From Tachypleus tridentatus (taxonomy: Eukaryota; Arthropoda; Merostomata; Xiphosura; Limulidae), in NCBI RefSeq assembly GCF_004210375.1, contig NC_134829.1, positions 56,722,107 through 56,786,106 on the forward strand: a DNA stretch of 64,000 nt, written 5' to 3'. How positions within the stretch are numbered: the stretch's first letter is position 1; each line of letters starts with the position of its first letter. Positions 12,516 through 61,200 of this stretch are shown here, one piece after another. The notes beneath the pieces were generated by a model. That model did not search any database, was not told the origin of the DNA, and saw only the letters and a program-made list of their open reading frames with translations. The position numbers were made by a program, and so were the translations under genes.

Positions 12516-13187
12516 CTTGTACAAATTAATTCAAACAAGACGGAAAATAACGTGTTTTTTTTCATTTTTTTTACGTTTTATTTTTGAGAATTCATAAATT
12601 ACTCACAAATTAATCCATGATATGACCGCCTTTATTTTTCAGAAGATCATTAATCCGCTTTGGTGGGCCTGGCATGGCCAAGCGCGTAAGGCGTGCGACT
12701 CGTAATCCGAGGGTCGCGGGTTCGCGCCCGCGTCGCGCTAAACATGCTCGCCCTCCCAGCCGTGGGGGTGTATAATGTGACGGTCAATCCCACTATTCGT
12801 TGGTAAAAGAGTAGCCCAAGAGTTGGCGGTGGGTGGTGATGACTAGCTGCCTTCCCTCTAGTCTTACACTGCTAAATTAGGGACGGCTAGCACAGATAGC
12901 CCTCGAGTAGCTTTGTGCGAAATTCCAAAAACAAACAAAACAAACAAACCGCTTTGGCATCGAGTCCACGAGTTGACTGCAATCTTTACTAACTTTTGTA
13001 TCACGGTACCACACCTCAATTATGGCCTCAATTAGCTTATCTTTCGTAGTACAGTCTTTTCCCCGAAGTCTTTCTTTACAAATCGTCTAAACATTTTCAA
13101 TAGGATTTAAGTCCGGAGAGTTCCCAGACCAGTCCAGCATGCTGAAAATATTGTAAAATGATCATTTGTTTCAATTAATTTGCACAA
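12516..13187 (-). mobile_element. Tc1-like deletion derivative
   Basis: Imperfect terminal inverted repeats: CTTGTACAAATTAATTCAAA at 12516-12535 against CTTGTGCAAATTAATTGAAA on the minus strand (13187 downward). Inside is only the C-terminal part of a Tc1/mariner-type transposase on the minus strand (about 12615-13160): LDWSGNSPDLNPIENVWTIC is the classic third-catalytic-residue block, followed by KERLRGKDCTTKDKLIEAII and EVWYRDTKVS...MPKRINDLLKNKGG. The N-terminal helix-turn-helix and the first catalytic Asp are absent. The coding part is split by the SINE at 12664-12948. Confidence 0.8.
12664..12948 (+). mobile_element. Family A SINE, young copy with 9-bp TSD
   Basis: Complete copy with intact A-box and B-box, inserted in the Tc1-like remnant. 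Direct repeats CCGCTTTGG at 12655-12663 and 12949-12957 flank it. It is one of the least diverged copies in the window and is a good reference sequence for the family. Confidence 0.95.
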
Positions 13188-18584: not shown

Positions 18585-18733
18585 AAAGAAAGAAAGAAGT
18601 AACTGACCGTAAGCTGACCACATGTTTGGAAGGGGTTGTGTAACTGAGTGTCGGAATGTAGAGGACGGTGTTAGATGTTTGAATATATAATTTTATTATA
18701 ATATTTTCAATATAGGTATAAATGTGTTCCTTT

Positions 18734-20243
18734 CTATTGGTTTATTTTGGGCTTAGGTTGTTGTATAAGTAAGGCTTCTTTAATTTTGCGTTTGTTTATG
18801 TTTGTTTCTTTATTTAGTATTTGAGTGTTTTCTATGGTTATGTTGTGTTTATTTGACTTGCAGTGTTCGAAAACGTGTGAAGATGACTTTTTATGTTATT
18901 TGAATCTGGTTTCCATTTTTCTACTTGTTTCTCCAATATAGAAGTCGTGGCAGATATCACATTGTATTTTATAAATAATGTTGGTGTGGTGTTTGTCAGT
19001 TTAGTTTTTACATAGTATAGACCTCAGTTTTGTGCCTGGTTTTTGAATAAATTTGGTATTAACTGGAATATCATATTTTGTTTCCAGTTTTTGCCATATG
19101 TTGGTTATTTGTCTGCTAATGTCGGGAATATATGGTATGCAGCAGTTTATGGTTTCGTGATTTTTTGATTCGTGAGATATATCTACTTTTGTTGGTTGAT
19201 TTTGCTTTCTGACTAGGTGTGTGCGTATAATGTTTTTTACGATTTGTGGAAGAAACTTATTGATATTGATGAAGTATTGTTTTATTTTGTCTAATTCATC
19301 GTTAATTTTATCTGGTGAGCATAGTTTTATGGCTGTGTTTATTTGGTTTCTTAGTATGTTGAGTTTTTGTTTTGTTTCATATGCTGAGTCCCAAGGAATG
19401 TATAGTCCAGTATGGGTGATTTTTCGGTGGACTTCTGTTTTGAATTGTGTGTCGGTTCTTGTAATTTTGAGGTTAAGAAATGATATTTGATTACTTTCTT
19501 CCTGTTCACATGTGAAGTTAATGTTGGGATGTATAGAGTTAATGTGATTGAAAAAATTAAGTATGTGTTCTGTAGATTTGAATCCTGCAACCGTGTCATC
19601 TACATATCTGTACCAGTACAGTGGTGGATGTAATGCTGTGTTAATTGCTTGTGTTTCAACTTGTGTCATAAAAATATTGGCTAGAACTGGTGATACTGGG
19701 TTGCCCATGCTTAGGCCATTTGTTTGTATATAGTTGTGGTTGTTGAACATGAAGTTTGTCTTTATCGTGGTGAATTTTATGAGGGTTGCTAAATGGTTGC
19801 AGGGAATGTCTATATTTGGGTTAGGGTCTCGGATATAGAGTTCTAAGGCTATCTTGCAGGCTTCAGCGGTTTTGACTTCTGTAAAGAGGGATATAACATC
19901 GAAACTGGCCATTAAGGTTTTATGATTAAGTTGATTTAGATTAGACTTGAAATTAAAAGAGTCTTTGATGAATGAGCTGGCTGATGTTACATATTTGGAA
20001 AATGCCCATGCTATGTATTTACCAATATTGTAATTAAACGATTCATATGTGGACATTATTGGTCGTAATGGACAATCTGGTTTATGAGGTTTGGGGATGC
20101 CGTATATTTGTGGTGTGTGTGAGTCGGTTTTACATAGGTAGGAATAAAGTGTTTGTGAAATTGTGTTGGCTTTTTTCATTTTTAGTAGTAATTTGTTCAG
20201 TTGCGTCTCGCGTGTCTTTGTTGGATTTGTGTGTATTGGTTTA
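18734..20243 (-). pseudogene. PLE reverse transcriptase / GIY-YIG protein
   Basis: One frame runs across the whole region. From the Met at 20179 the open part is 392 residues: YGIPKPHK (25-32), LRPI (38-41), the catalytic Asp block SFDVISLF (92-99), GLSMGNPVSPVLA (155-167), and YVDD (192-195), the polymerase catalytic pair. The frame ends at TAA (19001-19003) but continues in phase with IIYKIQC, CHDFYIGETSRKMETRFK, a second TAA (18896-18898), then HKKSSSHVFEHC and ends at TAG (18734-18736). YIGET is the GIY-YIG nuclease hallmark of PLEs. When intact it copies element RNA into DNA at a nicked target. Only two stops separate it from a full C-terminus, so it is a fairly recent copy. Confidence 0.9.
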
Positions 20244-38247: not shown

Positions 38248-41200
38248 TAGGCTATAATATAATACATAATTATCAGTTTATATATTTAATATACTCAATA
38301 ATCTACCAATTGTTAAGGCTATAAGATCATACATAATTATCAGTTTGGATATATTTAATATACTCAATAATCTACCAATTGTTAAGACTATAAGATCATA
38401 CATAATTATAAGTTTGGGTATATTTAATATATTCAAAATCTACCAATTGTTAAGGCTATAAGATCATACATAATTATCAGTTTGGATATATTTACTATAC
38501 TCCAAAATCTACCAATATTTAAAGCTATAAGATCATACATAATTATCAGTTTCGATATATTTAATAAACTCAATAATCTACCAATTGTTAAGGCTATACG
38601 ATCATACATAATTATCAGTTTGGATATATTTAATATGCTCAAAAGTCTACCAATTTTTAAGGCTCTAAGATCATACATAATTATCAGTTTGGATATATTT
38701 AATATATTCAATAATCTACCAGTTGTTAAAGCTATAATATTATAAATAATTATCAATTTGGATATATTTAATATACTCAATAATCTATAAAATGTTAAAG
38801 CTATAAGATCATACACAATTATCAGTTTGGATATATTTGATATATTCAATAATTTACCAATTGTTAAGGCTATAATATCATACATAATTATCAATTTCGA
38901 TATATTTAATATACTCAATAATGTACCAATTGTTAAGGCTATAAGATCATACATAATTATCAGTTTGGATATATTTAATATACTCAATAATCTACCAATT
39001 GTTAAGGCTATAAGATCGTACATAATTATCAATTTAATCATATTTTATATACTCAATAATCTATCAGTTGTTAAGGCTATAATATAATACATAATTATCA
39101 GTTTGGATATATTTAATATACTCGAAAATCTACCAATTGTTAAGGCTATAAGATATTACATAGTTATCAGTTTAGATATATTTAATATATTCAAGAATCT
39201 ACCAATTGTTAAGGCTATAAGATCATACATAATTATCAGTTTGGATATATTTACTATATTCAGAAATCTACCAATTGTTAAGGCTATAAGATCATACATA
39301 ATTATCAATTTGATTATATTTAATATACTCAATAATCTATCAATTGTTAAAGCTATAATATCATACATAATTATCAGTTTGGAGATATTTAATATACTCA
39401 ATAATCTACCAATTCTTAAGGCTATAAGATCATAGAAAATTATCAGTTTGGATATATTTATTATACTCAATAATCTATCAGTTGTTAAGGCTATAATATC
39501 ATACATAATTATCACTTTGGATATATTTAATTTTCTCAAAAATCAACCAATTGTTAAGGCTATAACATCATACATAATTATCAGATTGGATATATTTAGT
39601 ATACTCAAAAATCTACCAGTTGTATAGGCTATAAGATCAAAAATAATTATCAATTTGGATATATTTATTATACTCAATAATCTATAAATTGTTAAAGCTA
39701 TAAGATCATACACAATTATCAGTTTGGATATATTTGATATATTCAATAATTTACCAATTGTTAAGGCTATAATATCATACATAATTATCAATTTCGGTGT
39801 GTTTAATATACTCAATAATGTACCAATTGTTAAGGCTATAAGATCATACATAATTATCAGTTTGGATATATTTACTATACTCAATAATCTACGAATTATT
39901 AAGGCTATAAGATCATACATAATTATCAGTTTGGATATATTTAATATACTCAATAATCTACCAATTGTTAAGGCTATAAGATCATACATAATTATCAATT
40001 TAGATATATTTAATATACTCAATAATTTACCAATTTTTAAGGCTATAAGATCATACATAATTATCAGTTTGGGTATATTTAATATATACAATAATCTACC
40101 AATTGTTAAGGCTATAAGATCATACATAATTATCACTTTAAATATATTTAATATATTCAATAACCTATAAATTGTTAAGGCTATAACGTCATAAATAATT
40201 ATCGGTTTGGATATATTTAATATATTCAGTAATCTCCCAATTGTTCAGACTATAAAATCATACATAATTATCAGTTTGGATATATTTAATATATTCAATA
40301 ATCTACCAATTGTTAAGGCTATAAGATCGTACATAATTATCAATTTTATTATATTTAATATACTCAATAATCTATCAAATGTTAAAGCTATAATATCATA
40401 CATAATTATCAGTTTGGATATATTTAATATACTCAAAAATCTACCAATTGTTAAGGCTATAAAATCATACATAATTATCAGTTTCGATATATTTAATATA
40501 CTCAATAATCTACCAATTGTTACGGCTATAAGATCATACATAATTATCAATTTGATCATATTTAATATACTCAATAATCCATCAATTGTTAAGGCTATAA
40601 TATCATACATAATTATCAGTTTGGATATATTTAATATACTCAAAAATCTACCAATTGTTAAGGCTATAAAATCATACATAATTATCAGTTTGGATATATT
40701 TAATATAGTCAATAATCTACCAATTGTTTAGGCTATAATATCAAAAATAATTATCAGTATGGATATATTTAATATACTAAAAAATCTACCAATTGTTAAG
40801 GCTATAAGATCACACATAATTATCAGTTTGGAAATATTTAATATATTCAATTATCTACCAATTGTTAAGGTTATAAGATCACACATAATTATCAGTTTGG
40901 ATATATTTGATATATTCAATAATTTACCAATTGTTAAGGCTATAATATCACACATACTTATCAATTTCGGTGTGTTTAATATACTCAATAATGTACCAAT
41001 CGTTAAGGCTATAAGATCATACATAATTATCAGTTTGGATATATTTACTATACTCAATAATCTACGAATTGTTAAGGCTATAAGATCATACATAATTATC
41101 ACTTTGGATATATTTAATAAACTCAATAATCTACCAATTCTTAAGGCTATTAGATCATACATCATTATCAATTTAGATATATTTAATATACTCAATAATT

Positions 41201-44200
41201 TACCAATTGTTAAGGCTATAAGATCATACATAATTATCAGTTTGGATATATTTAATATATACAATAATCTACCAATTGTTAAGGCATAAGATCAAACATA
41301 ATTATCAGTTTGAATATAGATAATATGTTCAATAATTTATCAATTGTTAAGGCTATGAATTCATAAATAATTATCAGTTTGGATATATTTAATATATTCA
41401 GCAATTTACCAATTGGTAAGGCTATAAGATCATACATAATTATCAGATTGGATATATTTAATAAACTTAATAATCTAACAATTGTTAAGGCTATAAGTTT
41501 CTACTTAATTATCAGTTTGAATATATTTAATGTATTCAATAATCTACCAATTGTTAACGCTATTAGATTATAAATAATTATCAGTTTGGATCTATTCAAT
41601 ATACTCAAGAATCTACCAATTGTTAAGGCTAAAAATAATACATAATTATCGGTTTGCATACTTTTAATATATTCAATAGTCTACCAATTGTTAAGGCTAT
41701 AAGATCATACATAATTATCAGTTTGGATATATTTAATATACTCAAAAATCTACCAATTGTTAAGGCTATAAGATCATACATAATTATCAATTTGGATATA
41801 TTTAATTTTTCAATAATCTTCCAATTGTTAAGGCTATAAGATCATAAATAATTATCAGTTTGGATATATTTAATATCCTAAAAAATCTACCAATTGTTAA
41901 GGCTATCAGATCATACATAATTTTCAGTTTGGATATATTTAATATACTGAAGAATCTACCAGTTGTTAAGGCTATAAGATCATACATAATTATCAGTTTG
42001 GATATATTTAATATACTCAATAATCTACCAATTATTAAGGCTATAAAATCATACATAATTATTAAGTTGATTATATTTAATATACTCAATAATCTATAAA
42101 TTGTTAAAGCTATAAGATCATACACAATTAGCAGTTTGGATATATTTAATATATTCAATAATCTACCAATTGTTAAGGCTATAATATCATACATAATTAT
42201 CAATTTGGATGTGTTTAATATACTCAATAATGTACCAATTGTTAAGGCTATAAGATCATACATAATTATCAGTTTGGATATATTTACTATATTCAGTAAT
42301 CTACCAATTGTTAAGGCTATAAGATCATCCATAATTATCAATTTGATTATATTTAATATACTCAAAAATCTACCAATTGTTAAGGCTATAAAATCATACA
42401 TAATTATTAGTTTCGATATATTTAATATACTCAATAATGTACCAACTGTTACGGCTATAAGATCATACATAATTATCAATTTGATCATATTTAATATACT
42501 CAATAATCCATCAATTGTTAAGGCTATAATATCATACATAATTATCAGTTTGGATATATTTAATATACTCAAAAATCTACCAATTGTTAAGGCTATAAAA
42601 TCATACATAATTATCAGTTTGGATATATTTAATATAGTCAATAATCTACCAATTGTTTAGGCTATAATATCAAAAATAATTATCAGTATGGATATATTTA
42701 ATATACTAAAAAATCTACCAATTGTTAAGGCTATAAGATCACACATAATTATCAGTTTGGAAATATTTAATATATTCAATTATCTACCAATTGTTAAGGT
42801 TATAAGATCACACATAATTATCAGTTTGGATATATTTGATATATTCAATAATTTACCAATTGTTAAGGCTATAATATCATACATACTTATCAATTTCGGT
42901 GTGTTTAATATACTCAATAATGTACCAATTGTTAAGGCTATAAGATCATACATAATTATCAGTTTGGATATATTTAATATACTCAATAATCTACCAATTG
43001 TTAAGGCTATAAGATCATACATAATTATCACTTTGGATATATTTAATAAACTCAATAATCTACCAATTCTTAAGGCTATTAGATCATACATCATTATCAA
43101 TTTAGATATATTTAATATACTCAATAATTTACCAATTGTTAAGGCTATAAGATCATACATAATTATCAGTTTGGATATATTTAATATATACAATAATCTA
43201 CCAATTGTTAAGGCATAAGATCAAACATAATTATCAGTTTGAATATAGATAATATGTTCAATAATTTATCAATTGTTAAGGCTATGAATTCATAAATAAT
43301 TATCAGTTTGGATATATTTAATATATTCAGCAATTTACCAATTGGTAAGGCTATAAGATCATACATAATTATCAGATTGGATATATTTAATAAACTTAAT
43401 AATCTAACAATTGTTAAGGCTATAAGTTTCTACTTAATTATCAGTTTGAATATATTTAATGTATTCAATAATCTACCAATTGTTAACGCTATTAGATTAT
43501 AAATAATTATCAGTTTGGATCTATTCAATATACTCAAGAATCTACCAATTGTTAAGGCTAAAAATAATACATAATTATCGGTTTGCATACTTTTAATATA
43601 TTCAATAGCCTACCAATTGTTAAGGCAATCAGATCATACATAATTATCAGTTTGGATATATTTAATATACTCAAAAATCTACCAATTCTTAAGGCTCTAA
43701 GATCATACATAATTATCAATTTGGATATATTTAATTTTTCAATAATCTTCCAATTGTTAAGGCTATAAGATCATAAATAATTATCAGTTTGGATATATTT
43801 AATATCCTAAAAAATCTACCAATTGTTAAGGCTATAAGATCATACATAATTATCAGTTTGGATATATTTAATATACTGAATAATCTACCAATTGTTAAGG
43901 CTATAAGATCATACATAATTATCAGTTTGGATATATTTAATATACTCAATAATCTACCAATTATTAAGGCTATAAAATCATACATAATTATTAAGTTGAT
44001 TATATTTAATATACTCAATAATCTATAAATTGTTAAAGCTATAAGATCATACACAATTATCAGTTTGGATATATTTAATATATTCAATAATCTACCAATT
44101 GTTAAGGCTATAATATCATACATAATTATCAATTTGGATATATTTAATATACTCAATAATCTACCAATTGTTAAGGCTATAAGATCATACATAATTATCA

Positions 44201-45343
44201 GTTTGGATATATTTAATATATTCAGTAATCTACCAATTGTTAAGGCTATAAGATCATACATAATTATCAATTTGATTATATTTAATATACTCAAAAATCT
44301 ACCAATTGTTAAAGCTATAAAATCATACATAATTATTAGTTTCGATATATTTAATATACTCAATAATGTACCAACTGTTACGGCTATAAGATCATACATA
44401 ATTATCAATTTGATCATATTTAATATACTCAATAATCCATCAATTGTTAAGGCTATAATATCATACATAATTATCAGTTTGGATATATTTAATATACTGA
44501 AAAATCTACCAATTGTTAAGGCTATAAAATCATACATAATTATCAGTTTGGATATATTTAATATAGTCAATAATCTACCAATTGTTTAGGCTATAAGATC
44601 AAAAATAATTATCAGTATGGATATATTTAATATACTAAAAAATCTACCAATTGTTAAGGCTATAAGATCAAAAATAATTATCAGTATGGATATATTTAAT
44701 ATACTAAAAAATCTACCAATTGTTAAGGCTATAAGATCACACATAATTATCAGTTTGGAAATATTTAATATATTCAATTATCTACCAATTGTTAAGGTTA
44801 TAAGATCACACATAATTATCAGTTTGGATATATTTAATATACTCAATAATCTACCAATTGTTAGGGTTATAAGTTCATAAATAATTATCAATTTGGATAT
44901 ATTTAATATACTCAATAATCTACCAATTGTTAAAGCTATAAGATCATACATAATTATCAGTTTGGATATATTTAATATATTCAATAATCTACCAATTGTT
45001 AAGGCTATAAAATCAGACATAATTATCAGTTTGGATATATTTAATATACTCAATAATCTACCAATTGTTTTGGCTATAAGATCAAAAATAATTATCAGTT
45101 TGGATATATTTAATACACTCAAAAATCTACCAATTGTTAAGGCTATAAGATCATACATAATTATCAGTTTAAATATATTTAATATATTCCATAACCTACA
45201 ATTGTTAAGGCTATAACGTCATAAATAATTATCGGTTTGGATATATTTAATATATTCAGTAATCTCCCAATTGTTCAGACTATAAAATCATACATAATTA
45301 TCAGTTTGGATATATTTAATATACTTAATAATCTAGCAATTGT
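38248..45343. repeat. 69-bp satellite-like array (~7.1 kb)
   Basis: About 100 copies of a 69-bp unit: ATCATACATAATTATCAGTT TGGATATATTTAATATACTC AATAATCTACCAATTGTTAA GGCTATAAG. Because 69 is 23 codons, both strands stay open for long runs (plus: repeating SLDIFNILNNLPIVKAIRS; minus: repeating LIALTIGRLLSILNISKLI). Substitutions occur at all codon positions and stops recur wherever a unit loses phase, so I treat it as noncoding. Units contain the palindrome CCAATTG-type core and several AT-rich inverted words. Confidence 0.95.
40742..44599. repeat. 1,929-bp higher-order repeat, two copies
   Basis: Diagnostic units recur exactly 1,929 bp apart: TATGGATATATTTAATATAC variants at about 40757 and 42686, the unit lacking three bases (AAGGCATAAGATC) at about 41281 and 43210, and GGTTTGCATACTTTTAATAT at about 41650 and 43579. 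Copy 1 is about 40742-42670 and copy 2 about 42671-44599, each 28 monomers. The start of a third copy follows with a further one-unit duplication. Similarity also extends left (40207-40731 against 42136-42660). Confidence 0.93.
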
Positions 45344-45499
45344 TATATCACAAAGTTCGTTTATATATCGCTTAGATAATAGATAATGAAATGTTAAATT
45401 ATTTCACGAACAGATAATAACCAACTTCGTTTCGTTCAGGTACATTTATAGTCTGGAACTTGACTCTTATATTTATGACGATATAGATAAGATATTAAA

Positions 45500-46039
45500 A
45501 TTTATGAACCATGCTGTATTGCGACCCAATTCACAATAGATATCGTAGGTAACATACTCTTATTCTTAGAAGTGATGGTTACCAAGACGGATAACTCATG
45601 TGCCACAAGAATGTAGAGGGAAATTGTTATGTCTGGTACATACCAGAACTTTAAATCAAACCACGCCAGCATTGTAAAGTCGGGCGTCATAGTAATCGGT
45701 TTTCAAATGAAGATTTCTGATACCGGAGAAGGTAGAAAGAAGGTAAAAAGTATCCCATCCGTACATCCTTCCTTAACAACGGTTACCATAGCCACTCAAC
45801 AAGGAAGTAAGTAAAGAAGACACGGGCATTTCAGAGGTTTATCTGAAAATATACAAAGAACATATAAACCGCATAATTTCAGAACAACAGTGAGAAACCG
45901 CAACGCAATATGTTTAGATTTAGTACACGCCAAATCACGTGAGGACCCGACGAAAAACCAAAACACAGTTTATGGCATCCCTTGGGAGTGTGGACTCCAC
46001 GACATTGAGGAAACCGAAAGGTCAACAAAAAATTCATAG
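45500..46039 (+). pseudogene. Second PLE family, C-terminal RT/GIY-YIG remnant
   Basis: A single plus-strand frame with two internal stops (about 45614 and 45812-45814) reads QFTIDIVGNILLFLEVMVTK, TDNSCATRM, stop, REIVMSGTYQNFKSNHASIV KSGVI, and after the second stop RGLSENIQRTYKPHNFRTTV, then AKSREDPTKNQNTVYGIPWE CG and a decayed YIGET-like HDIEETERS, ending at TAG (46037-46039). The order 'F-LEVMVTK', 'YQNFKSNH', 'NTVYGIPWECG' is that of the RT thumb and linker of a PLE. It clearly differs from the element at 18.7-20.2 kb. Confidence 0.7.
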
Positions 46040-46166
46040 TATAATAAGTAATTCATAGTATAATTGGTACAGAATGAACCACAAAGGTAGAAAAGAGAAA
46101 CGTTCGTAGCGCTGTTAATAGTGTGTTTTGACATTAATCTTTGTAAACTATGGCCTTAAAACTTAA

Positions 46167-46181
46167 TAGAGGTTTTGCGTG
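46167..46181 (+). repeat. Left terminal inverted repeat
   Basis: TAGAGGTTTTGCGTG, identical in reverse complement to 48835-48849. It is the probable transposase-binding and cleavage end of the THAP/SWIM transposon. Confidence 0.9.
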
Positions 46182-46192
46182 AACCTGTTAGT

Positions 46193-46202
46193 GTCACGTG
46201 AC
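46193..46202. promoter_or_regulatory. GTCACGTGAC palindrome upstream of SWIM gene
   Basis: A perfect 10-bp palindrome containing an E-box (CACGTG), 100 bp upstream of the ATG at 46302 and just inside the left TIR. A promoter role is inferred from position only. Confidence 0.35.
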
Positions 46203-46301
46203 CACAGCGAGGTTTGTAAACATACCACCATATTGGGTGGCAAGTGTCCCTCATGACTGAACGAGTTAACAACTGCTGTATTCAGTACTATTCACATGTA
46301 A

Positions 46302-47578
46302 ATGGCTGCCGCTGGCTTTTCATCACTTGAAGCACACCTGACAGGTGCTGAAAAGGCCAAGTATGAGGAAAAGTGAAGGAACTGGGTGTAGGAGACCCGT
46401 ATATGCTCCCGCCACGTGTATTTACGCCAGTAATATCCAGTCAAGACAACGTTGTTCAGAGTCAGACTGTTTCCGGAGTAGATCTGCCATATATTAAACA
46501 TGGTGACATTTATATATATTTGATAAACAGGACATCCACCTATACAAATGAAAGTCTAAAAGGTTACAAAAGCCTTGATGCGTACAAGTCTTTGTGGCAG
46601 GATTTGTACAGAATGTCCAGATAACCAGGGCAACGTCGGATAAAGTCATCATTACAGCAAAGGTTTGTACATCATGTTATATTACATACATGTATCATGT
46701 ACTCTGTATGATAGATTTAACTACATTTTAGACGAAGACTAGATACTGAAGTAAAGTAGGGCCCCCATTTTAATAAATGGTTCAATATTATTGTACTACA
46801 TGTGTACTGACTGTTGTCAAAGCTCTAGCTTAGGAGCACTTCTATACATGTTTGTATAATGATATTAAGATACCTTATTGTCTAGGCTGTTTCAAAACTT
46901 AATTTTTGATTTATGATTAATTTTTGGTAAGGAATCAATATATAGATAATAAATAGTACAAGTAGACATAGACCGTTAAAGCTGGTCAATAGCCATGTTA
47001 GGTTTCTGTAAAAATAATTTAATATTTAGCTGTTCTGTTATTTTTTTATATTATTTTATTATTTGAGTGACACATGTATCCCAACCTGATACCCAGTTGT
47101 CTTTAAAAGCTTATATATACACAACTTAATATTTTATTTGTTATTTTACACACCACTCTCAGCGGCTAAATGAACCACCACTAAAGCCATGGGTTGCTAG
47201 CTGCAAGAATAGAGGGATAATATCTTCCCACTGCACCTGCAAGGCTGGACTAGGTGAAGTCTGCTCCCACGTAGCAGCAACTTTGTTCCACATGGAAGCT
47301 GTCGTAAAGAGACATCACAGCACAGCTTGCACATCAATGCCTTGTGAGTGGATTGTTCCACCCAGAGGAAAGGGACACTTAAAGAGGTTACAGACATGGA
47401 CTTCACAAGTGTCACAACAACAACAAAAAAAACTGACCGAGCAGTCTACAACAGAATGCCAAGCAACAGCAACAGCATGCCCCCAATGACTGAGGAAGAA
47501 GTAAAGGCATGCTACCTTGCAATTCAGAACACTGGAGTGAAGTCTGGCTTCCTCTCATTGACTAAGGACAATTGTTGA
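46302..47578 (+). pseudogene. SWIM zinc-finger protein (YqaJ-type partner), truncated
   Basis: Exon 1 starts at ATG 46302 (MAAAGFSSLEAHLTGAEKAK), then after one frame change KELGVGDPYMLPPRVF, DLPYIKHGDIYIYLINRTS and SLKGYKSLDAYKS, and after another AGFVQNVQITRATSDKVIIT AK, ending at donor GT 46663. Exon 2 (acceptor AG 47161-47162 or slightly upstream) reads RLNEPPLKPWVASCKNRGII and the SWIM finger SSHCTCKAGLGEVCSHVAAT (CxC...CxH), then a third frame change and TEEEVKACYLAIQNTGVKSG FLSLTKDNC, stop 47576-47578. These are the N-terminal and SWIM regions of proteins that normally continue into a YqaJ-type nuclease domain, absent here. All three frame changes equal loss of one base, two or three in short homopolymers. 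The acceptor is uncertain: HSQ, normally coded before RLN, precedes the only AG. Confidence 0.75.
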
Positions 47579-47581
47579 AAT

Positions 47582-48732
47582 TTAAAGACTGAATGTGTAT
47601 CTCGGAAATATCTGTAAATTTGGTTGAATATGATCATCATATGACGGCAGACCTGTACAGTATTTGACCTTCTCGTCGTCATTTGCAAAAGTAGCATCTT
47701 CGAAACAGTTCGCTTTTGCTATACTTTTATAGTGGAGGACTTCATTCCGCAACTGTTGGCATTCAGATTCAAGTCTAACTAAGTCTGTGAATGATATTTC
47801 CGTCTATATACATGTCTCAGTTGTATATTGTGATGTACACAAGTCAAAATTATCACATGTAGCTTCAAGTTCATCAGCAGAATCAGTACAGCTGCTATCA
47901 GTGCCAGCAGATTCTATGAAAGCAAGGTCAAGCAGCCCAACAGCAGCTTCATGTCTCTTTTGTTGTTCTTTTCTCCTTTTGGTCACTTCTTTCCTGTTTT
48001 CATATTTACACAATTCAGCAGCTTTCCTTCTCTTCAGGGGAGAACGTGTAAAATGAAATATGGAAGGTACATAGTCAGGTGACAGGGGATCATCACTCTT
48101 CGTCCCTGAAACAGAGTACAATAATTTAGTTAAGATATAGATCTACAGGCATCATCAGATAATATTTATATATATAACAAATACACTGTACACTTTTAAC
48201 TGAATATATATATATAACTGAATATGCTGAACATTGTTTAACAACTGAATGTACAGCCAACAAAGTAATTATTTGCACACTTTTTAATCTTGTACCAGTT
48301 GTGGTATTCTGATGAATCACTTAAATTGGTCCTTTAAGAGATATTAACATTTTGTCTTAATGTACAAATGGCTATATAACCTATTCATCATGAATGATAT
48401 TATTCCTTCAGTAAATTTACTATTCAGTTATTTAAAAGTAAAAGAAAAGTGTGCAAAACATTTCTTTGACTGGTGCTGCAGTGTGTTCTGCTATACATAT
48501 ATCATGCATGTAAGTTTCAATTTATTCACCTGGCTATAGATGAATTATAGATACCTGACACAAAATGTTTACTACAAAGTCTGGTGTGCTCTGTGGGTGT
48601 CCAGTTTTTCCTATTGACAGCTGCAATCCATCGTCTTCTTCGGTCGGGATCTTTAGGAAATCTGTAGTATGACACATTTTCCACCTGTCCATGTCGATTT
48701 GAACAGTTAAATGCACAACACGAGTGTACCAT
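47582..48732 (-). pseudogene. THAP-domain transposase, N-terminal part
   Basis: Exon 1 (48732-48555) starts MVHSCCAFNCSNRHG, the usual THAP start, and exon 2 (48105-47582) joins in phase 1 with good GT/AG signals around a 449-bp intron. THAP C2CH: Cys5/Cys10, Cys53, His56 (LCSKHF), with YYRFPKD, RRRWIAAVNR and the closing YVPSIF (about 71-76) all in place. A basic stretch follows (SPLKRRKAAELCKYENRKEV), then an acidic region. At 47804-47806 an in-frame TAG interrupts, yet the same frame continues with a heptad-like RLESECQQLRNEVLHYKSIA and DEKVKYCTGLPSYDDHI, the segment that precedes the DDE domain in THAP/Harbinger-related transposases. It ends at TAA 47582-47584 without DDE residues. When intact it binds the transposon ends through the THAP finger. 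An upstream Met at 48792 would add 20 residues; I prefer 48732. Confidence 0.85.
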
Positions 48733-48826
48733 CGCGCACTTTTGACTATGAATCACCCTTGTGTTGGAATATAAACACGTCGAGCGTGCCACCCATCATG
48801 GCGGTCAGCAGTAATTAGGTCAAGAG

Positions 48827-48834
48827 TGACGTCA
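48827..48834. promoter_or_regulatory. TGACGTCA (CRE-type) site upstream of THAP gene
   Basis: Perfect 8-bp CRE palindrome adjacent to the right TIR and about 95 bp upstream of the THAP start on the minus strand. The regulatory role is inferred. Confidence 0.4.
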
Positions 48835-48849
48835 CACGCAAAACCTCTA
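48835..48849 (-). repeat. Right terminal inverted repeat
   Basis: CACGCAAAACCTCTA, exact reverse complement of the left TIR. Confidence 0.9.
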
Positions 48850-48850
48850 T

Positions 48851-49560
48851 AGTGTGTTGTAGTATTTAAGTATTTGGTATGACATTCAGTAAACCACAAG
48901 TATTTGTATCCAAAACCAAAACAAGATTATCGATATAAATACGGAAAGGTCAAGGAAGCTAACACGTCTTTCAACCAAAACTAATAGTTATAGGTTCTTT
49001 TTACACTATCATATCCTGTGAAATTATGAGTATTTCTGGTGAACAAAACTTACATATTTCAACATTATTCGTTGTTAAAATAGAGATAGGCTTCATAACA
49101 TTAAAATCAGAGATGCCCTTCACAACACTAAAACAGAGATACCCTTTACAACATTAACAACAGATATATCCTGGTTTATATAACAATAATAACACTTATA
49201 TCCAGGCCGTACTAAAATAAAAACAAATATTTTGTTTCCCTGTACAACAATAAAAAGATAAATATTTTAAACAGCTTAACAACAAACAATGAGGTACAAT
49301 ATATATATTCAGATCATTATATCAGTAAAAACAAATATATTCTAGACTGGAGAAGAATAAAAATATAGATATTATAGTCATCTACTCTGTATATTCAGCG
49401 AGTAATAAACTGCTCGCATGGGTATATATGTGTACGTATGTATAAGCAGCGACAATATTTAAACATCTATCAATGAAAAACAATAACCTTTCTTTCTGGG
49501 TTAGTTTTTATATTCATCGAACTTCCAGTTCACAGTGAAACAATAAGTTTAATTGACACA
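48851..49560. other. AT-rich, weak repeats only
   Basis: Around 49070-49280 degenerate words such as CAACATTAAAACAGAGATA recur four or five times. No coding block. Confidence 0.5.
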
Positions 49561-49838
49561 ATGGACCTGGCATGACCAAGCGTGTTAAGGCGTGCGACTC
49601 GTAATCTGAGGGTCGCGGGTTCGCATCCCCGTCGCGCCAAACATGCTTGCCCTTTCAGCCGTGGGGGCGTTATAATGTGAGGGTCAATCCCACTATTCGT
49701 TGGTAAAAGAGTAGTCTAAGAGTTGGCGGTGGGTGGTGATGACTAGCTGCCTTCCCTCTAATCTTACACTGCTAAATTAGGGATGGCTAGCACAAGTAGC
49801 CCTCAAGAAGCTTTGTGTGAAATTCAAAACAAACAAAA
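49561..49838 (+). mobile_element. Family A SINE with probable TSD
   Basis: Intact head (GCGTGCGACTCGTAATCTGA, GGGTTCGCATCCCC) and tail CAAAACAAACAAA. Flanks AATTGACACA and AATTGACCCA differ at one base and are the likely target duplication. Confidence 0.93.
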
Positions 49839-50114
49839 TTGACCCAACACGTGACAAAAATTTCAGTCATTACTTTCTGTTGTCCACTTTTGCCAGCTAT
49901 TTTGCTATATTTTTGTGTCCACAGAAACTGTGGACGATTTTTTTTAATTTTTTGCTGTTTGTCGTTCTTGGTAAACAAGTATATTTCTATCCTGTTATTG
50001 TATTGACTTTCACCCAGTGATCATAATTTTAGCCTCGGCAAATCGACCCATAGAGTGGGTCTGATTTTTTTGTTCCTTAGGACAAACTTTTAGCTCATGG
50101 CTCCGTCATCTCTG

Positions 50115-50395
50115 GGGTCCGGCATGGGCAGGTGAATTAATACGCTCGACTTGTAATATAAGGGTCGCGGGTTCGAATACCCGTCGCACAAAATATGCTT
50201 TGCCCTTTTTCAGCTGTGGGGGCGTTATAATGTAACGGTCAATTCCAATATTCGTTAGTAAAATAGTAGCCCAAGAGTTGGCGGTGGGTGGTGATGACTA
50301 AGTGCCTTCCCTCTAGTCTCACACTACTAAATTAGGGACGGCTTGCGCCGATAGCCCTTGAGTAGCTTTGCGTGAAATTCAGAAGAAACAAAACC
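50115..50395 (+). mobile_element. Family A SINE
   Basis: Full length from GGTCCGGCATGGGCAGGTGA, with a GGGTTCGAATACCC B-box, to TTCAGAAGAAACAAAACC. It is the second plus copy within 600 bp. Confidence 0.92.
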
Positions 50396-50829
50396 ATCAT
50401 CGCTTTACCGATTTGAAATATAATTAGTTTTGAACTCAGGAGGTCAAATCGTTTAGAATGACATATCTAACCACGTCCAAGATTTCATTGGTTACTTTTC
50501 TCTAATCCTGCCTAAAATAATTGTAACTTAAGTGTGATCCTAATGAGTGGTAAAACTTAAACATACTCTCGTCCCCATGTCTTGTATAAATAAAAACAAA
50601 GTTAGAAAAGAATTTCATAAATTTCTTTAATTCTGCACACAAAAAATTTCAAGTTCCACAATAACTGGAGATTCTCTCTTGTTTTTAATTTCAATATATT
50701 TACCTCGGAGGTACAGACTAAGCGAAAGGACATAAAATATGTTACTATGTACATACACTTGTTCATTCAAAAGTTAAGTGTGTGTTTACTATAATAATAA
50801 TATACATATATTTCATTAATGCTGTGATA
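50396..50829. other. No recognised feature
   Basis: AT-rich. Confidence 0.5.
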
Positions 50830-52255: not shown

Positions 52256-52257
52256 TT

Positions 52258-55200
52258 ATACATGCATCATTCTGAACTTTACACAAACATCTTAAGTCAC
52301 ACTATAACTACACTTACATCATTCCTTAACTCTACACGCACATCTTAAGTCACACTATAGCTATACTTACATCATTCTGAATTTTACACAAACATCTTAA
52401 GTGACACTATAGCTATACTTACATCATTCTGAATTTTACACAAACATCTTAAGTCACACTATAGCTATACTTACATCATTCCTTAACTTTACACAAACAT
52501 CTTAAGTCACACTATAGCTATACTTACATCATTCTTAACTTTACACAAACATCTTAAGTCACACTATAGCTATACTTACATCATTCCTTAACTTTACACA
52601 AACATCTTAAGTCACACTATAGCTATACTTACATCATTCTGAATTTTACACAAACATCTTAAGTCACACTATAGCTATACTTACATCATTCTGAATTTTA
52701 CACAAACATCTTAAGTCACACTATAGCTACACTTACATCATTCCTTAACTTTACACAAACATCTTAAGTGACACTATAGCTATACTTACATCATTCCTTA
52801 ACTTTACACAAACATCTTAAGTCACACTATAGCTATACTTACATCATTCTGAATTTTACACAAACATCTTAAGTCACACTATAGCTATACTTACATCATT
52901 CCTTAACTTTACACAAACATCTTAAGTCACACTATAGCTATACTTACATCATTCTGAATTTTACACAAACATCTTAAGTCACACTATAGCTATACTTACA
53001 TCATTCTGAATTTTACACAAACATCTTAAGTGACACTATAGCTATACTTACATCATTCTGAATTTTACACAAACATCTTAAGTCACACTATAGCTACACT
53101 TACATCATTCCTTAACTTTACACAAACATCTTAAGTCACACTATAGCTATACTTACATCATTCCTTAACTTTACACAAACATCTTAAGTCACACTATAGC
53201 TATACTTACATCATTCCTTAACTTTACACAAACATCTTAAGTCACACTATAGCTATACTTACATCATTCCTTAATTTTACACAAACATCTTAAGTCACAC
53301 TATAGCTATACTTACATCATTCCTTAACTTTACACAAACATCTTAAGTCACACTATAGCTATACTTACATCATTCCTTAACTTTACACAAACATCTTAAG
53401 TGACACTATAGCTACACTTACATCATTCCTTAACTTTACACAAACATCTTAAGTGACACTATAGCTACACTTACATCATTCCTTAACTTTACACAAACAT
53501 CTTAAGTCACACTATAGCTATACTTACATCATTCTGAATTTTACACAAACATCTTAAGTCACACTATAGCTGTACTTACATCAATCCTGAACTTTACACA
53601 AACATCTTAAGTCACACTCTAGCTATACTTACATCATTCTGAATTTTACACAAACATCTTAAGTCACACTATAGCTATAATTACATCATTCCTTAACTTT
53701 ACACAAACATCTTAAGTCACACTATAGCTATACTTACATCATTCCTTAACTTTATACAAACATCTTAAGTCACACTATAGCTATACTTACATCATTCCTT
53801 AACTTTACACAAACATCTTAAGTGACACTATAGCTACACTTACATCATTCCTTAACTTTACACAAACATCTTAAGTCACACTATAGCTATACTTACATCA
53901 TTCCTTAACTTTACACAAACATCTTAAGTCACACTATAGCTATACTTACATCATTCCTTAACTTTACACAAACATCCTAAGTCACACTATAGCTATACTT
54001 ACATCATTCATTAACTTTACACAAACATCTTAAGTCACACTATAGCTATACTTACATCATTCCTTAACTTTACACAAACATCTTAAGTTACACTATAGGT
54101 ACACTTACATCATTCCTTAACTTTACACAAACATCTTAAGTCACACTATAGCTATACTTACATCATTCTTGAATTTTACACAAACATCTTAAGTCACACT
54201 ATAGCTATACTTACATCATTCCTTAACTTTACACAAACATCTTAAGTCACACTATAGCTATACTTACATCATTCTGAATTTTACACAAACATCTTAAGTC
54301 ACACTATAGCTATACTTACATCATTCCTTAACTTTACACAAACATCTTAAGTCACACTATAGCTATACTTACATCATTCCTTAACTTTACACAAACATCT
54401 TAAGTCACACTATAGCTATACTTACATCATTCCTTAACTTTACACAAACATCTTAAGTCACACTATAGCTATACTTACATCATTCCTTAACTTTACACAA
54501 ACATCTTAAGTCACACTATAGCTATACTTACATCATTCTTAATTTTACACAAACATCTTAAGTCACACTATAGCTATACTTACATCATTCTTAATTTTAC
54601 ACAAACATCTTAAGTCACACTATAGCTGTACTTACATCAATCCTGAACTTTACACAAACATCTTAAGTCACACTCTAGCTATACTTACATCATTCTGAAT
54701 TTTACACAAACATCTTAAGTCACACTATAGCTATAATTACATCATTCCTTAACTTTACACAAACATCTTAAGTCACACTATAGCTATACTTACATCATTC
54801 CTTAACTTTACACAAACATCTTAAGTCACACTATAGCTATACTTACATCATTCCTTAACTTTACACAAACATCTTAAGTGACACTATAGCTACACTTACA
54901 TCATTCCTTAACTTTACACAAACATCTTAAGTGACACTATAGCTACACTTACATCATTCCTTAACTTTACACAAACATCTTAAGTCACACTATAGCTATA
55001 CTTACATCATTCCTTAACTTTACACAAACATCCTAAGTCACACTATAGCTATACTTACATCATTCATTAACTTTACACAAACATCTTAAGTCACACTATA
55101 GCTGTACTTACATCATTCCTTAACTTTACACAAACATCTTAAGTTACACTATAGGTACACTTACATCATTCCTTAACTTTACACAAACATCTTAAGTCAC

Positions 55201-58200
55201 ACTATAGCTATACTTACATCATTCCTTAACTTTACACAAACATCTTAAGTCACACTATAGTTATACTTACATCATTCCTTAACTTTACACAAACATCTTA
55301 AGTCACACTATAGCTATACTTACATCATTCTGAATTTTACACAAACATCTTAAGTCACACTATAGCTATACTTACATCATTCCTTAACTTTACACAAACA
55401 TCTTAAGTCACACTATAGCTATACTTACATCATTCCTTAACTTTACACAAACATCTTAAGTCACACTATAGCTATACTTACATCATTCCTTAACTTTACA
55501 CAAACATCTTAAGTCACACTATAGCTATACTTACATCATTCCTTAACTTTACACAAACATCTTAAGTCACACTATAGCTATACTTACATCATTTTGAATT
55601 TTACACAAACATCTTAAGTCACACTATAGATATATTTACATCATTCCTTAACTTTACACAAACATCTTAAGTCACACTATAGCTATACTTACATCATTCC
55701 TTAACTTTACACAAACATCTTAAGTCACACTATAGCTGTACTTACATCAATCCTGAACTTTACACAAACATCTTAAGTCACACTCTAGCTATACTTACAT
55801 CATTCTGAATTTTACACAAACATCTTAAGTCACACTATAGCTATAATTACATCATTCCTTAACTTTACACAAACATCTTAAGTCACACTATAGCTATACT
55901 TACATCATTCCTTAACTTTACACAAACATCTTAAGTGACACTATAGCTACACTTACATCATTCCTTAACTTTACACAAACATCTTAAGTCACACTATAGC
56001 TATACTTACATCATTCCTTAACTTTACACAAACATCCTAAGTCACACTATAGCTATACTTACATCATTCATTAACTTTACACAAACATCTTAAGTCACAC
56101 TATAGCTGTACTTACATCATTCCTTAACTTTACACAAACATCTTAAGTTACACTATAGGTACACTTACATCATTCCTTAACTTTACACAAACATCTTAAG
56201 TCACACTATAGCTATACTTACATCATTCTGAATTTTACACAAACATCTTAAGTCACACTATAGCTATACTTACATCATTCCTTAACTTTACACAAACATC
56301 TTAAGTCACACTATAGCTATACTTACATCATTCTTAATTTTACACAAACATCTTAAGTCACACTATAGCTATACTTACATCATTCCTTAACTTTACACAA
56401 ACATCTTAAGTCACACTATAGCTATACTTACATCATTCCTTAACTTTACACAAACATCTTAAGTCACACTATAGCTATACTTACATCATTCCTTAACTTT
56501 ACACAAACATCTTAAGTCACACTATAGCTATACTTACATCATTCCTTAACTTTACACAAACATCTTAAGTCACACTATAGCTATACTTACATCATTCCTT
56601 AATTTTACACAAACATCTTAAGTCACACTATAGCTATACTTACATCATTCTGAATTTTACACAAACATCTTAAGTCACACTATAGCTATACTTACATCAT
56701 TCCTGAACTTTACACAAACATCTTAAGTCACACTATAGCTATACTTACATCATTCTGAATTTTACACAAACATCTTAAGTCACACTATAGCTATACTTAC
56801 ATCATTCCTTAACTTTACACAAACATCTTAAGTCACACTATAGCTATACTTACATCATTCCTTAACTTTACACAAACATCTTAAGTCACACTATAGCTAT
56901 ACTTACATCATTCCTTAACTTTACACAAACATCTTAAGTGACACTATAGCTACACTTACATCATTCCTTAACTTTACACAAACATCTTAAGTGACACTAT
57001 AGCTACACTTACATCATTCCTTAACTTTACACAAACATCTTAAGTCACACTATAGCTATACTTACATCATTCCTTAACTTTACACAAACATCTTAAGTCA
57101 CACTATAGCTATACTTACATCATTCCTTAACTTTACACAAACATCTTAAGTCACACTATAGCTAAGTACTTACTTACATCATTCCTTAACTTTACACAAA
57201 CATCTTAAGTCACACTATAGCTATACTTACATCATTCCTTAACTTTACACAAACATCTTAAGTCACACTATAGCTATACTTACATCATTCCTTAACTTTA
57301 CACAAACATCTTAAGTCACACTATAGCTATACTTACATCATTCCTTAACTTTACACAAACATCTTAAGTCACACTATAGCTATACTTACATCATTCCTTA
57401 ACTTTACACAAACATCTTAAGTCACACTATAGCTATACTTACATCATTCCTTAACTTTACACAAACATCTTAAGTCACACTATAGCTATACTTACATCAT
57501 TCCTTAACTTTACACAAACATCTTAAGTCACACTATAGCTATACTTACATCATTCCTTAACTTTACACAAACATCTTAAGTCACACTATAGCTATACTTA
57601 CATCATTCCTTAACTTTACACAAACATCTTAAGTCACACTATAGCTATACTTACATCATTCTTAACTTTACACAAACATCTTAAGTCACACTATAGCTAT
57701 ACTTACATCATTCCTTAACTTTACACAAACATCTTAAGTCACACTATAGCTATACTTACATCATTCCTTAACTTTACACAAACATCTTAAGTCACACTAT
57801 AGCTATACTTACATCATTCCTTAACTTTACACAAACATCTTAAGTCACACTATAGCTATACTTACATCATTCCTTAACTTTACACAAACATCTTAAGTCA
57901 CACTATAGCTATACTTACATCATTCCTTAACTTTACACAAACATCTTAAGTCACACTATAGCTATACTTACATCATTCCTTAACTTTACACAAACATCTT
58001 AAGTCACACTATAGCTATACTTACATCATTCCTTAACTTTACACAAACATCTTAAGTCACACTATAGCTATACTTACATCATTCCTTAACTTTACACAAA
58101 CATCTTAAGTCACACTATAGCTATACTTACATCATTCCTTAACTTTACACAAACATCTTAAGTCACACTATAGCTATACTTACATCATTCCTTAACTTTA

Positions 58201-61200
58201 CACAAACATCTTAAGTCACACTATAGCTATATACTTACATCATTCCTTAACTTTACACAAACATCTTAAGTCACACTATAGCTATACTTACATCATTCCT
58301 TAACTTTACACAAACATCTTAAGTCACACTATAGCTATACTTACATCATTCCTTAACTTTACACAAACATCTTAAGTCACACTATAGCTATACTTACATC
58401 ATTCTGAATTTTACACAAACATCTTAAGTCACACTATAGCTATACTTACATCATTCCTTAACTTTACACAAACATCTTAAGTCACACTATAGCTATACTT
58501 ACATCATTCCTTAACTTTACACAAACATCTTAAGTCACACTATAGCTATACTTACATCATTCCTTAACTTTACACAAACATCTTAAGTCACACTATAGCT
58601 ATACTTACATCATTCCTTAACTTTACACAAACATCTTAAGTCACACTATAGCTATACTTACATCATTCCTTAACTTTACACAAACATCTTAAGTCACACT
58701 ATAGCTATACTTACATCATTCCTTAACTTTACACAAACATCTTAAGTCACACTATAGCTATACTTACATCATTCCTTAACTTTACACAAACATCTTAAGT
58801 CACACTATAGCTATACTTACATCATTCCTTAACTTTACACAAACATCTTAAGTCACACTATAGCTATACTTACATCATTCCTTAACTTTACACAAACATC
58901 TTAAGTCACACTATAGCTATACTTACATCATTCCTTAACTTTACACAAACATCTTAAGTCACACTATAGCTATACTTACATCATTCCTTAACTTTACACA
59001 AACATCTTAAGTCACACTATAGCTATACTTACATCATTCCTTAACTTTACACAAACATCTTAAGTCACACTATAGCTATACTTACATCATTCCTTAACTT
59101 TACACAAACATCTTAAGTCACACTATAGCTACACTTACATCATTCCTTAACTTTACACAAACATCTTAAGTCACACTATAGCTATACTTACATATTCTAC
59201 TTACATCACACTATATTCCTTACATCACTGAATTTTACACAAACATCTTAAGTCACACTATAGCTATACTTACATCATTCCTTAACTTTACACAAACATC
59301 TTAAGTCACACTATAGCTATACTTACATCATTCCTTAACTTTACACAAACATCTTAAGTCACACTATAGCTATACTTACATCATTCCTTAACTTTACACA
59401 AACATCTTAAGTCACACTATAGCTATACTTACATCATTCCTTAACTTTACACAAACATCTTAAGTCACACTATAGCTATACTTACATCATTCCTTAACTT
59501 TACACAAACATCTTAAGTCACACTATAGCTATACTTACATCATTCCTTAACTTTACACAAACATCTTAAGTCACACTATAGCTATACTTACATCATTCCT
59601 TAACTTTACACAAACATCTTAAGTCACACTATAGCTATACTTACATCATTCCTTAACTTTACACAAACATCTTAAGTCACACTATAGCTATACTTACATC
59701 ATTCCTTAACTTTACACAAACATCTTAAGTCACACTATAGCTATACTTACATCATTCCTTAACTTTACACAAACATCTTAAGTCACACTATAGCTATACT
59801 TACATCATTCCTTAACTTTACACAAACATCTTAAGTCACACTATAGCTATACTTACATCATTCCTTAATTTTACACAAACATCTTAAGTCACACTATAGC
59901 TATACTTACATCATTCCTTAACTTTACACAAACATCTTAAGTCACACTATAGCTATACTTACATCATTCCTTAACTTTACACAAACATCTTAAGTCACAC
60001 TATAGCTATACTTACATCATTCTGAATTTTACACAAACATCTTAAGTCACACTATAGCTATACTTACATCATTCCTTAACTTTACACAAACATCTTAAGT
60101 CACACTATAGCTATACTTACATCATTCCTTAACTTTACACAAACATCTTAAGTCACACTATAGCTATACTTACATCATTCCTTAACTTTACACAAACATC
60201 TTAAGTCACACTATAGCTATACTTACATCATTCTTAACTTTACACAAACATCTTAAGTCACACTATAGCTATACTTACATCATTCCTTAACTTTACACAA
60301 ACATCTTAAGTCACACTATAGCTATACTTACATCATTCCTTAACTTTACACAAACATCTTAAGTCACACTATAGCTATACTTACATCATTCCTTAACTTT
60401 ACACAAACATCTTAAGTCACACTATAGCTATACTTACATCATTCCTTAACTTTACACAAACATCTTAAGTCACACTATAGCTATACTTACATCATTCCTT
60501 AACAATTTTACACAAACATCTTAAGTCACACTATAGCTATACTTACATCATTCCTTAACTTTACACAAACATCTTAAGTCACACTATAGCTATACTTACA
60601 TCATTCCTTAACTTTACACAAACATCTTAAGTCACACTATAGCTATACTTACATCATTCCTTAACTTTACACAAACATCTTAAGTCACACTATAGCTATA
60701 CTTACATCATTCCTTAACTTTACACAAACATCTTAAGTCACACTATAGCTATACTTACATCATTTCTTAACTTTACACAAACATCTTAAGTCACACTATA
60801 GCTATACTTACATCATTCCTTAACTTTACACAAACATCTTAAGTCACACTATAGCTATACTTACATCATTCCTTAACTTTACACAAACATCTTAAGTCAC
60901 ACTATAGCTATACTTACATCATTCCTTAACTTTACACAAACATCTTAAGTCACACTATAGCTATACTTACATCATTCCTTAACTTTACACAAACATCTTA
61001 AGTCACACTATAGCTATACTTACATCATTCCTTAACTTTACACAAACATCTTAAGTCACACTATAGCTATGAACTTACATCATTCCTTAACTTTACACAA
61101 ACATCTTAAGTCACACTATAGCTATACTTACATCATTCCTTAACTTTACACAAACATCTTAAGTCACACTATAGCTATACTTACATCATTCCTTAACTTT

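Follow-up and report, generated by a model that had tools for sequence, protein, structure and literature searches.

A decayed 2.7-kb element in Tachypleus tridentatus, very probably an internal-deletion derivative of an ISL2EU-type DNA transposon

ISL2EU elements are DNA transposons found in animals. According to the available portions of PMC4482050, they create AT target-site duplications, encode a transposase with DDE, HTH and THAP parts, carry a second open reading frame for YqaJ and average ~4840 bp in length; the portions of PMC9179366 available to us likewise describe a DDE transposase with HTH or THAP, accompanied by a YqaJ exonuclease reading frame. Groups are defined by the composition of the target-site duplication, and the characteristics listed for ISL2EU in the same portions of PMC4482050 include insertion in an A/AT/T context and terminal inverted repeats (TIRs) usually starting with GG. 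For P elements, both KP-type repressors derived from deleted copies and truncated repressors bearing a THAP domain are known (sections of PMC7776569 and PMC12393704). Here, a 2.7-kb element was analyzed within a 64,000-nucleotide stretch of the T. tridentatus genome (the window). The element is non-autonomous and very probably derives by internal deletion from a ~5-kb ISL2EU-type DNA transposon of the PHIS superfamily; one deletion removed ~2.3 kb and left both ends. The copy in the window represents an ordinary relic of a transposon type already known, decayed but probably once mobile. Its features, with window coordinates, are as follows.

46166-48850: whole element, 2.7 kb, with two inward-facing gene remnants
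46166..46167, no strand: left target-site duplication AT; single AT in the empty sites of two other insertions
46168..46181, plus strand: left TIR AGAGGTTTTGCGTG, 14 bp, perfect inverted match
46224..46242, plus strand: left subterminal motif (common form CCGCCATATTGGGTGGCA), with an inverted counterpart at the right end
46302..46662, plus strand: remnant of gene 2 exon 1 (MAAAG... GVGDPY...); exon end placed by hand, splicing presumed
47232..47285, plus strand: SWIM-like CxC...CxH motif; sub-threshold Pfam SWIM match
47516..47578, plus strand: end of truncated gene 2, ...SLTKDNC stop; last two residues from across the junction
47569..47570, no strand: internal deletion junction GGAC/AATTG, from alignment to full-length copies
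47582..47803, minus strand: THAP frame past the nonsense codon (zipper region and junction tail), outside the translated part in this copy
47804..48105, minus strand: remnant of THAP gene exon 2 up to the in-frame TAG (47804-47806); acceptor placed by hand, splicing presumed
48555..48732, minus strand: THAP gene exon 1, THAP zinc finger; frame open; Pfam THAP 6.2e-16, PDB THAP2 1.3e-15
48787..48805, minus strand: right subterminal motif (CCGCCATGATGGGTGGCA), with an inverted counterpart at the left end
48835..48848, minus strand: right TIR, inverted match with the left end
48849..48850, no strand: right target-site duplication AT; single AT in the empty sites of two other insertions

The outermost 16 bases of the element form a perfect inverted match (46166-46181 and 48835-48850). 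An earlier reading of the DNA without database searches (the sequence-only reading) had assigned perfect 15-bp TIRs and a 2-bp target duplication to this element; the match is indeed perfect and the duplication is real, but the TIRs measure 14 bp once the AT is assigned to the target duplication. Ends were compared over 38 copies, including that in the window, from a genome in which a 35-base pattern (≤3 mismatches) detects 97 left ends. After 17 of the 38 had been dropped as duplicates or for damaged ends, AT was present at both ends in 20 of the 21 insertion sites counted, the exception being L028, which was kept in the count and has a changed right end. Two paralogous empty sites, recognized as the joined flanks of other copies, each contain a single AT, and this, together with the AT across copies, sets the TIR length at 14 bp rather than 15. 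The empty site for L013 is window 18601-18900 (minus strand), and that for the L034/L035 group is represented by SINE-like copies, e.g., window 12661-12945. The bases outside the AT pairs are T..A at 14 of the 21 sites, T..T at 4 and A..A at 3. TA was rejected as the target duplication, since it is incompatible with sites that have A on the left or T on the right, and the empty sites fit AT. The SINE-like repeat, ~275 bp long and with what we take to be a tRNA-like head, occurs at 17 places in the 64 kb (one of them 12664-12941), and the L034-type element inserted into one copy elsewhere in the genome; ARAGORN detected no tRNA in the window.

The subterminal inverted match that had also been claimed is genuine (46224-46242 and 48787-48805). 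A motif close to CCGCCATNNTGGGTGGCA, with ≤3 substitutions, occurs at 37 of 38 left ends and 28 of 38 right ends, at distances of about 60 and 47 bases from the left and right termini, respectively. It presumably resembles a YY1 site (GCCATNTT), and in the window (46225-46242, 48787-48804) it lies upstream of the first ATG of each gene; judged from its sequence and position, it may serve as a promoter element, either instead of or as well as a transposase site. The 13-base TIR core has one further match in the window at ≤2 mismatches, with 2 mismatches. The stretch of the window that contains the element sits between two tandem arrays. A 69-bp array at 38249-45345 (about 103 copies, 87% match) ends about 820 bp to the left of the element and also matches sequence to the left of a duplicate 31 kb away, while a 53-bp array occupies 52257-59197 (about 131 copies, 96% match), with more of it from 59234 to 60000, where the tandem-array scan ended.

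Longer relatives with the same TIRs, which the sequence-only reading had proposed to look for in the same genome, were recovered. A DNA search of the 2.17-Gb genome yielded 63 matches; the best 40 of 125 candidates were scored and 37 regions were fetched, among which ten copies of ~5 kb (4740-5018 bp) occupy about seven sites, the ten not being independent, given the common flanks of L011, L015 and L020 and of L014 and L017. L019 and L023 have one altered end each. Each of the ten aligns to the window element in two parts (about 1-1407 and about 1405-2685), between which lie 2.28-2.31 kb of extra DNA in nine copies and 2.07 kb in L023, which carries a small deletion of its own. In the full-length copy L014, profile searches, which had likewise been proposed for the parent, identified DDE_Tnp_4 (3.9e-51), HTH_Tnp_4 (1.3e-17), YqaJ (1.4e-17) and THAP (5.6e-16), but no Pfam SWIM match was found in the L014 segment. 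The exon with HTH and DDE_Tnp_4 lies downstream of the THAP exon, whereas YqaJ belongs to the opposite, convergent gene, at the end of which a weak PHD-like stretch is seen (0.033, under the cut-off); both genes are presumably spliced. Spacings of 74 and 46 residues separate the catalytic D, D and E. In each of the ten full-length copies, at least one of the two genes is not fully open: L014 has the longest transposase frame among them, with 448 codons between stops, and gene-2 frames reach at most 427 codons, which is shorter than the whole exon. Fully open copies may be present among the other 59 left ends.

Alignment to these copies places the deletion junction at 47569/47570, where the window reads CTAAGGAC joined to AATTGTTG and the full-length copies read CTAAGGACTATG... 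and ...TATGAATTGTTG. Relative to nine of them, ~2.29 kb is missing; one gene has thereby lost its YqaJ portion and the THAP transposase most of its HTH/DDE portion, with both ends of the element left in place. The proposal that a single internal deletion somewhere between about 47,560 and 47,645 accounts for both catalytic losses is therefore confirmed, the blind reading of raw sequence having bracketed the junction within 85 bases. No microhomology was found at the junction; a 3-base microhomology suggested by BLAST overlap was ruled out by eye, the copy reading GGAC/AATTG and the parents GGACTATG (left) and TATGAATTG (right). Overlaps at the other junctions in this study are BLAST values and may include chance extension. 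Faulty repair, either following excision or in the course of replication, may have produced the deletion, and full-length copies would have supplied the transposase that moved the short form in trans; no copy among the ten has both genes open, which weakens the case for present mobilization.

The same junction occurs exactly at three places, representing two independent sites, in answer to the suggestion that short copies sharing it be counted: the window, L009 (C5, +31 kb) and L010 (C7), as detected with a 33-base pattern at ≤3 mismatches, under which copies with >3 changes would be missed. The reversed control pattern gave no match. L009 differs from the window at 15 of 820 positions in the left flank (98.2% identity), 13 of 1947 in the right flank (99.3%) and 25 of 2683 in the element (99.1%), and the common flanks identify it as a segmental duplicate 31 kb away; transposition as the source of that copy is thereby ruled out. 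The duplication covers 45346-50800, and its second copy lies 31 kb downstream on the same contig with 98-99% identity. L010, on another contig, has flanks unrelated to those of the window and L009, both element ends and its own AT pair. The presence of the same junction at this unrelated site suggests that the short form was probably mobilized at least once, in keeping with the mobilizable derivative envisaged by the sequence-only reading, with the caveat of the arm trees considered next.

Two features argue for one origin of the short form. An 8-bp deletion about 70 bp to the right of the junction is found only in the window, L009 and L010 and is absent from the 17 others among the 20 copies with the context string, and a left-arm variant at element site 334 is confined to the same three among 24 rows. 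However, a single clade of the window, L009 and L010 was rejected by AU tests on both the left arm (p 0.031; 24 rows) and the right arm (p 0.007; 29 rows), so that simple descent of one short element is insufficient and either conversion or recurrence has to be invoked. Recurrence, i.e., an identical deletion formed once in L010 and once in the lineage of the window and L009, would explain the rejected clades, but it is very unlikely, as the junction offers no microhomology to guide a repeat event and the nearby 8-bp deletion is common to exactly the same three copies. A possible, albeit doubtful, alternative is that the short form reached its second background not by transposition but by ectopic gene conversion or template-switching repair. 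This agrees with the differing affinities of the arms of L010 and of the window and L009, and with the L016/L034-type alleles that the window, but not L009, carries at element sites 290, 307 and 325 (window 46455, 46472 and 46490), a possible short conversion tract as judged from these alleles. Nevertheless, the evidence for a tract consists of few informative sites, and L010 is complete, with both ends and its own AT pair, as transposition would also give. These data are tentatively read as a single deletion, with conversion or template switching between copies superimposed on it.

What remains of the two genes in the window is decayed. The sequence-only reading described convergent genes with stops only 3 bp apart, and the frames and their stops (TGA 47576-47578 and TAA 47582-47584) are as it described; the genes, however, are not unbroken. 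In the THAP gene, the in-frame TAG at 47804-47806 cuts the protein before the zipper in both the window and L009; L010 is free of this codon, yet a separate change has removed much of its exon 2. In gene 2, the frame of exon 1 is broken in the window by two 1-base deletions; L009 has one such deletion and L010 none. The SWIM-like motif scores 16.2 bits in the window frame against a Pfam cut-off of 19.6, and its frame stops at 47487-47489, while another frame ends at 47578. The ...SLTKDNC ending is the same in L009 and L010. Behind the motif, with L021 as the reference, the window shows three 1-base indels; L009 shows three 1-base deletions that amount to one codon, its SWIM frame continuing to the junction stop, and in L010 the gene-2 frame is open across the junction to ...KDNC-stop. 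The tract is length-variable, with indels relative to L021 in 8 of the 9 other full-length copies. Because the frames run to the junction stop in L009 and L010, the deletion probably arose while the SWIM half was still open, with decay following in the window lineage. The word "SWIM" was not found in the available main text of PMC4482050 or PMC9179366, and a literature search combining SWIM, YqaJ and transposon returned no title on transposon families, although the motif is not thereby proven unpublished. Accordingly, of the proposal that each gene keeps its binding half and loses its catalytic part, the catalytic losses and the retained THAP exon stand, whereas working halves do not, given the nonsense codon and the frameshifted SWIM gene.

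Whether retention of binding halves has meaning was assessed over 18 internal deletions defined by their junctions, the window's included, drawn from the best-scored part of the family (best 40 of 125 candidates, 38 of 97 left ends); L026, with no right arm found, was left out. All 18 deletions spare the THAP exon, 12 spare the zipper, 5 the SWIM-like motif and 9 gene-2 exon 1, against expected fractions of 0.90, 0.46, 0.48 and 0.79, respectively, under uniform placement of deletions of the same sizes (binomial p 0.15, one-sided, for the THAP exon, 0.098 for the zipper, 0.10 for SWIM and 0.006 for gene-2 exon 1). L043 was scored as sparing the THAP exon, although the exon is absent there, as the right end is missing for another reason. 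The kept right arm is longer than the left in 13 of 18 (sign test 0.096, Wilcoxon 0.038, both uncorrected), and a kept arm of <700 bp is the left one in 11 deletions and the right one in 1. Among the 18, loss of both catalytic domains together with retention of THAP, zipper and SWIM is seen in the window lineage alone. The eight copies L034-L041, with a 1112/3909 junction, have a common left flank, and the six with a right end also have a common right flank; they were therefore counted as one event. They sit within the SINE-like repeat, with five located on contig C19, and, from their flanking sequences, were apparently amplified as part of a larger unit rather than by transposition.

On the sequence-only reading, retention of both binding halves could make a repressor-type derivative. 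A KP-like derivative of this kind would occupy the element ends with its shortened THAP (and SWIM) proteins and so block transposition. The open THAP exon in the window, the sparing of this exon by every sampled deletion and of the zipper by most, the longer right arms and the precedent of KP in P elements (within the parts of PMC7776569 and PMC12393704 available) speak for such a role, but it is extremely unlikely. For the window copy it was rejected on the grounds of the nonsense codon before the zipper, which L009 has as well, together with the frameshifts in the SWIM gene; this element would now make no working repressor, even though its THAP finger exon is still open. Beyond this copy, the form with the same junction was found at only two independent sites, geometry alone keeps the THAP exon in about 90% of random deletions, and the inward orientation of the genes means that their N-termini are kept after any central deletion. 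Moreover, 9 of 16 derivative lineages have an open THAP exon, compared with 5 of 10 full-length copies (L023, both a full-length copy and a deletion event, entering this comparison as full-length only), giving no sign of selection on the THAP frame of derivatives. The lean of the sampled deletions toward the THAP (right) side is weak and, in a sample from the best-scored copies, may reflect ascertainment. It is improbable that derivatives keeping the THAP-plus-zipper side spread better, either because the family makes its own THAP repressors or because it needs a long right subterminal region in cis, with the window element as a decayed member. The preferred reading remains a decayed internal-deletion derivative of an ISL2EU-type transposon.

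Comparison with published ISL2EU elements reveals several likenesses. The family described here also makes 2-bp AT target-site duplications (20 of 21 sites); its full-length copy L014 encodes DDE, HTH and THAP parts of a transposase, with THAP on an upstream exon presumably joined by splicing, and THAP remains in the window copy; L014 has the YqaJ second reading frame, which is deleted from the window copy; and its full-length copies, mostly ~5.0 kb (4740-5018 bp), are close to the published ~4.84 kb. However, the flanks here are T/AT/A at 14 of 21 sites rather than the published A/AT/T, and the TIR starts with AGAGG rather than the usual GG, both of which count against an ISL2EU derivation. 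In addition, the YqaJ gene of this family has a SWIM-like motif and a weak PHD-like end.

P elements have a single transposase gene and are not known to carry a YqaJ gene. Those of Drosophila, with their KP derivatives, resemble this family in having internal deletions that keep both ends and can retain the N-terminal THAP region, and in occurring in many sizes beside full-length copies, as far as the consulted parts of PMC7776569 and PMC12393704 describe them. However, they belong to another superfamily and make 8-bp duplications, a length stated for zebrafish P-like elements in the part of PMC7776569 consulted. Unlike KP, the window copy cannot make a THAP-plus-zipper protein, and an open truncated frame of this kind is absent from all three copies with the junction, being cut by the TAG in the window and L009 and short of much of exon 2 in L010. 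Nevertheless, a single ISL2EU family with 18 internal deletions beside full-length copies makes self-limitation by THAP-bearing derivatives, as known from P elements, examinable outside the P superfamily.
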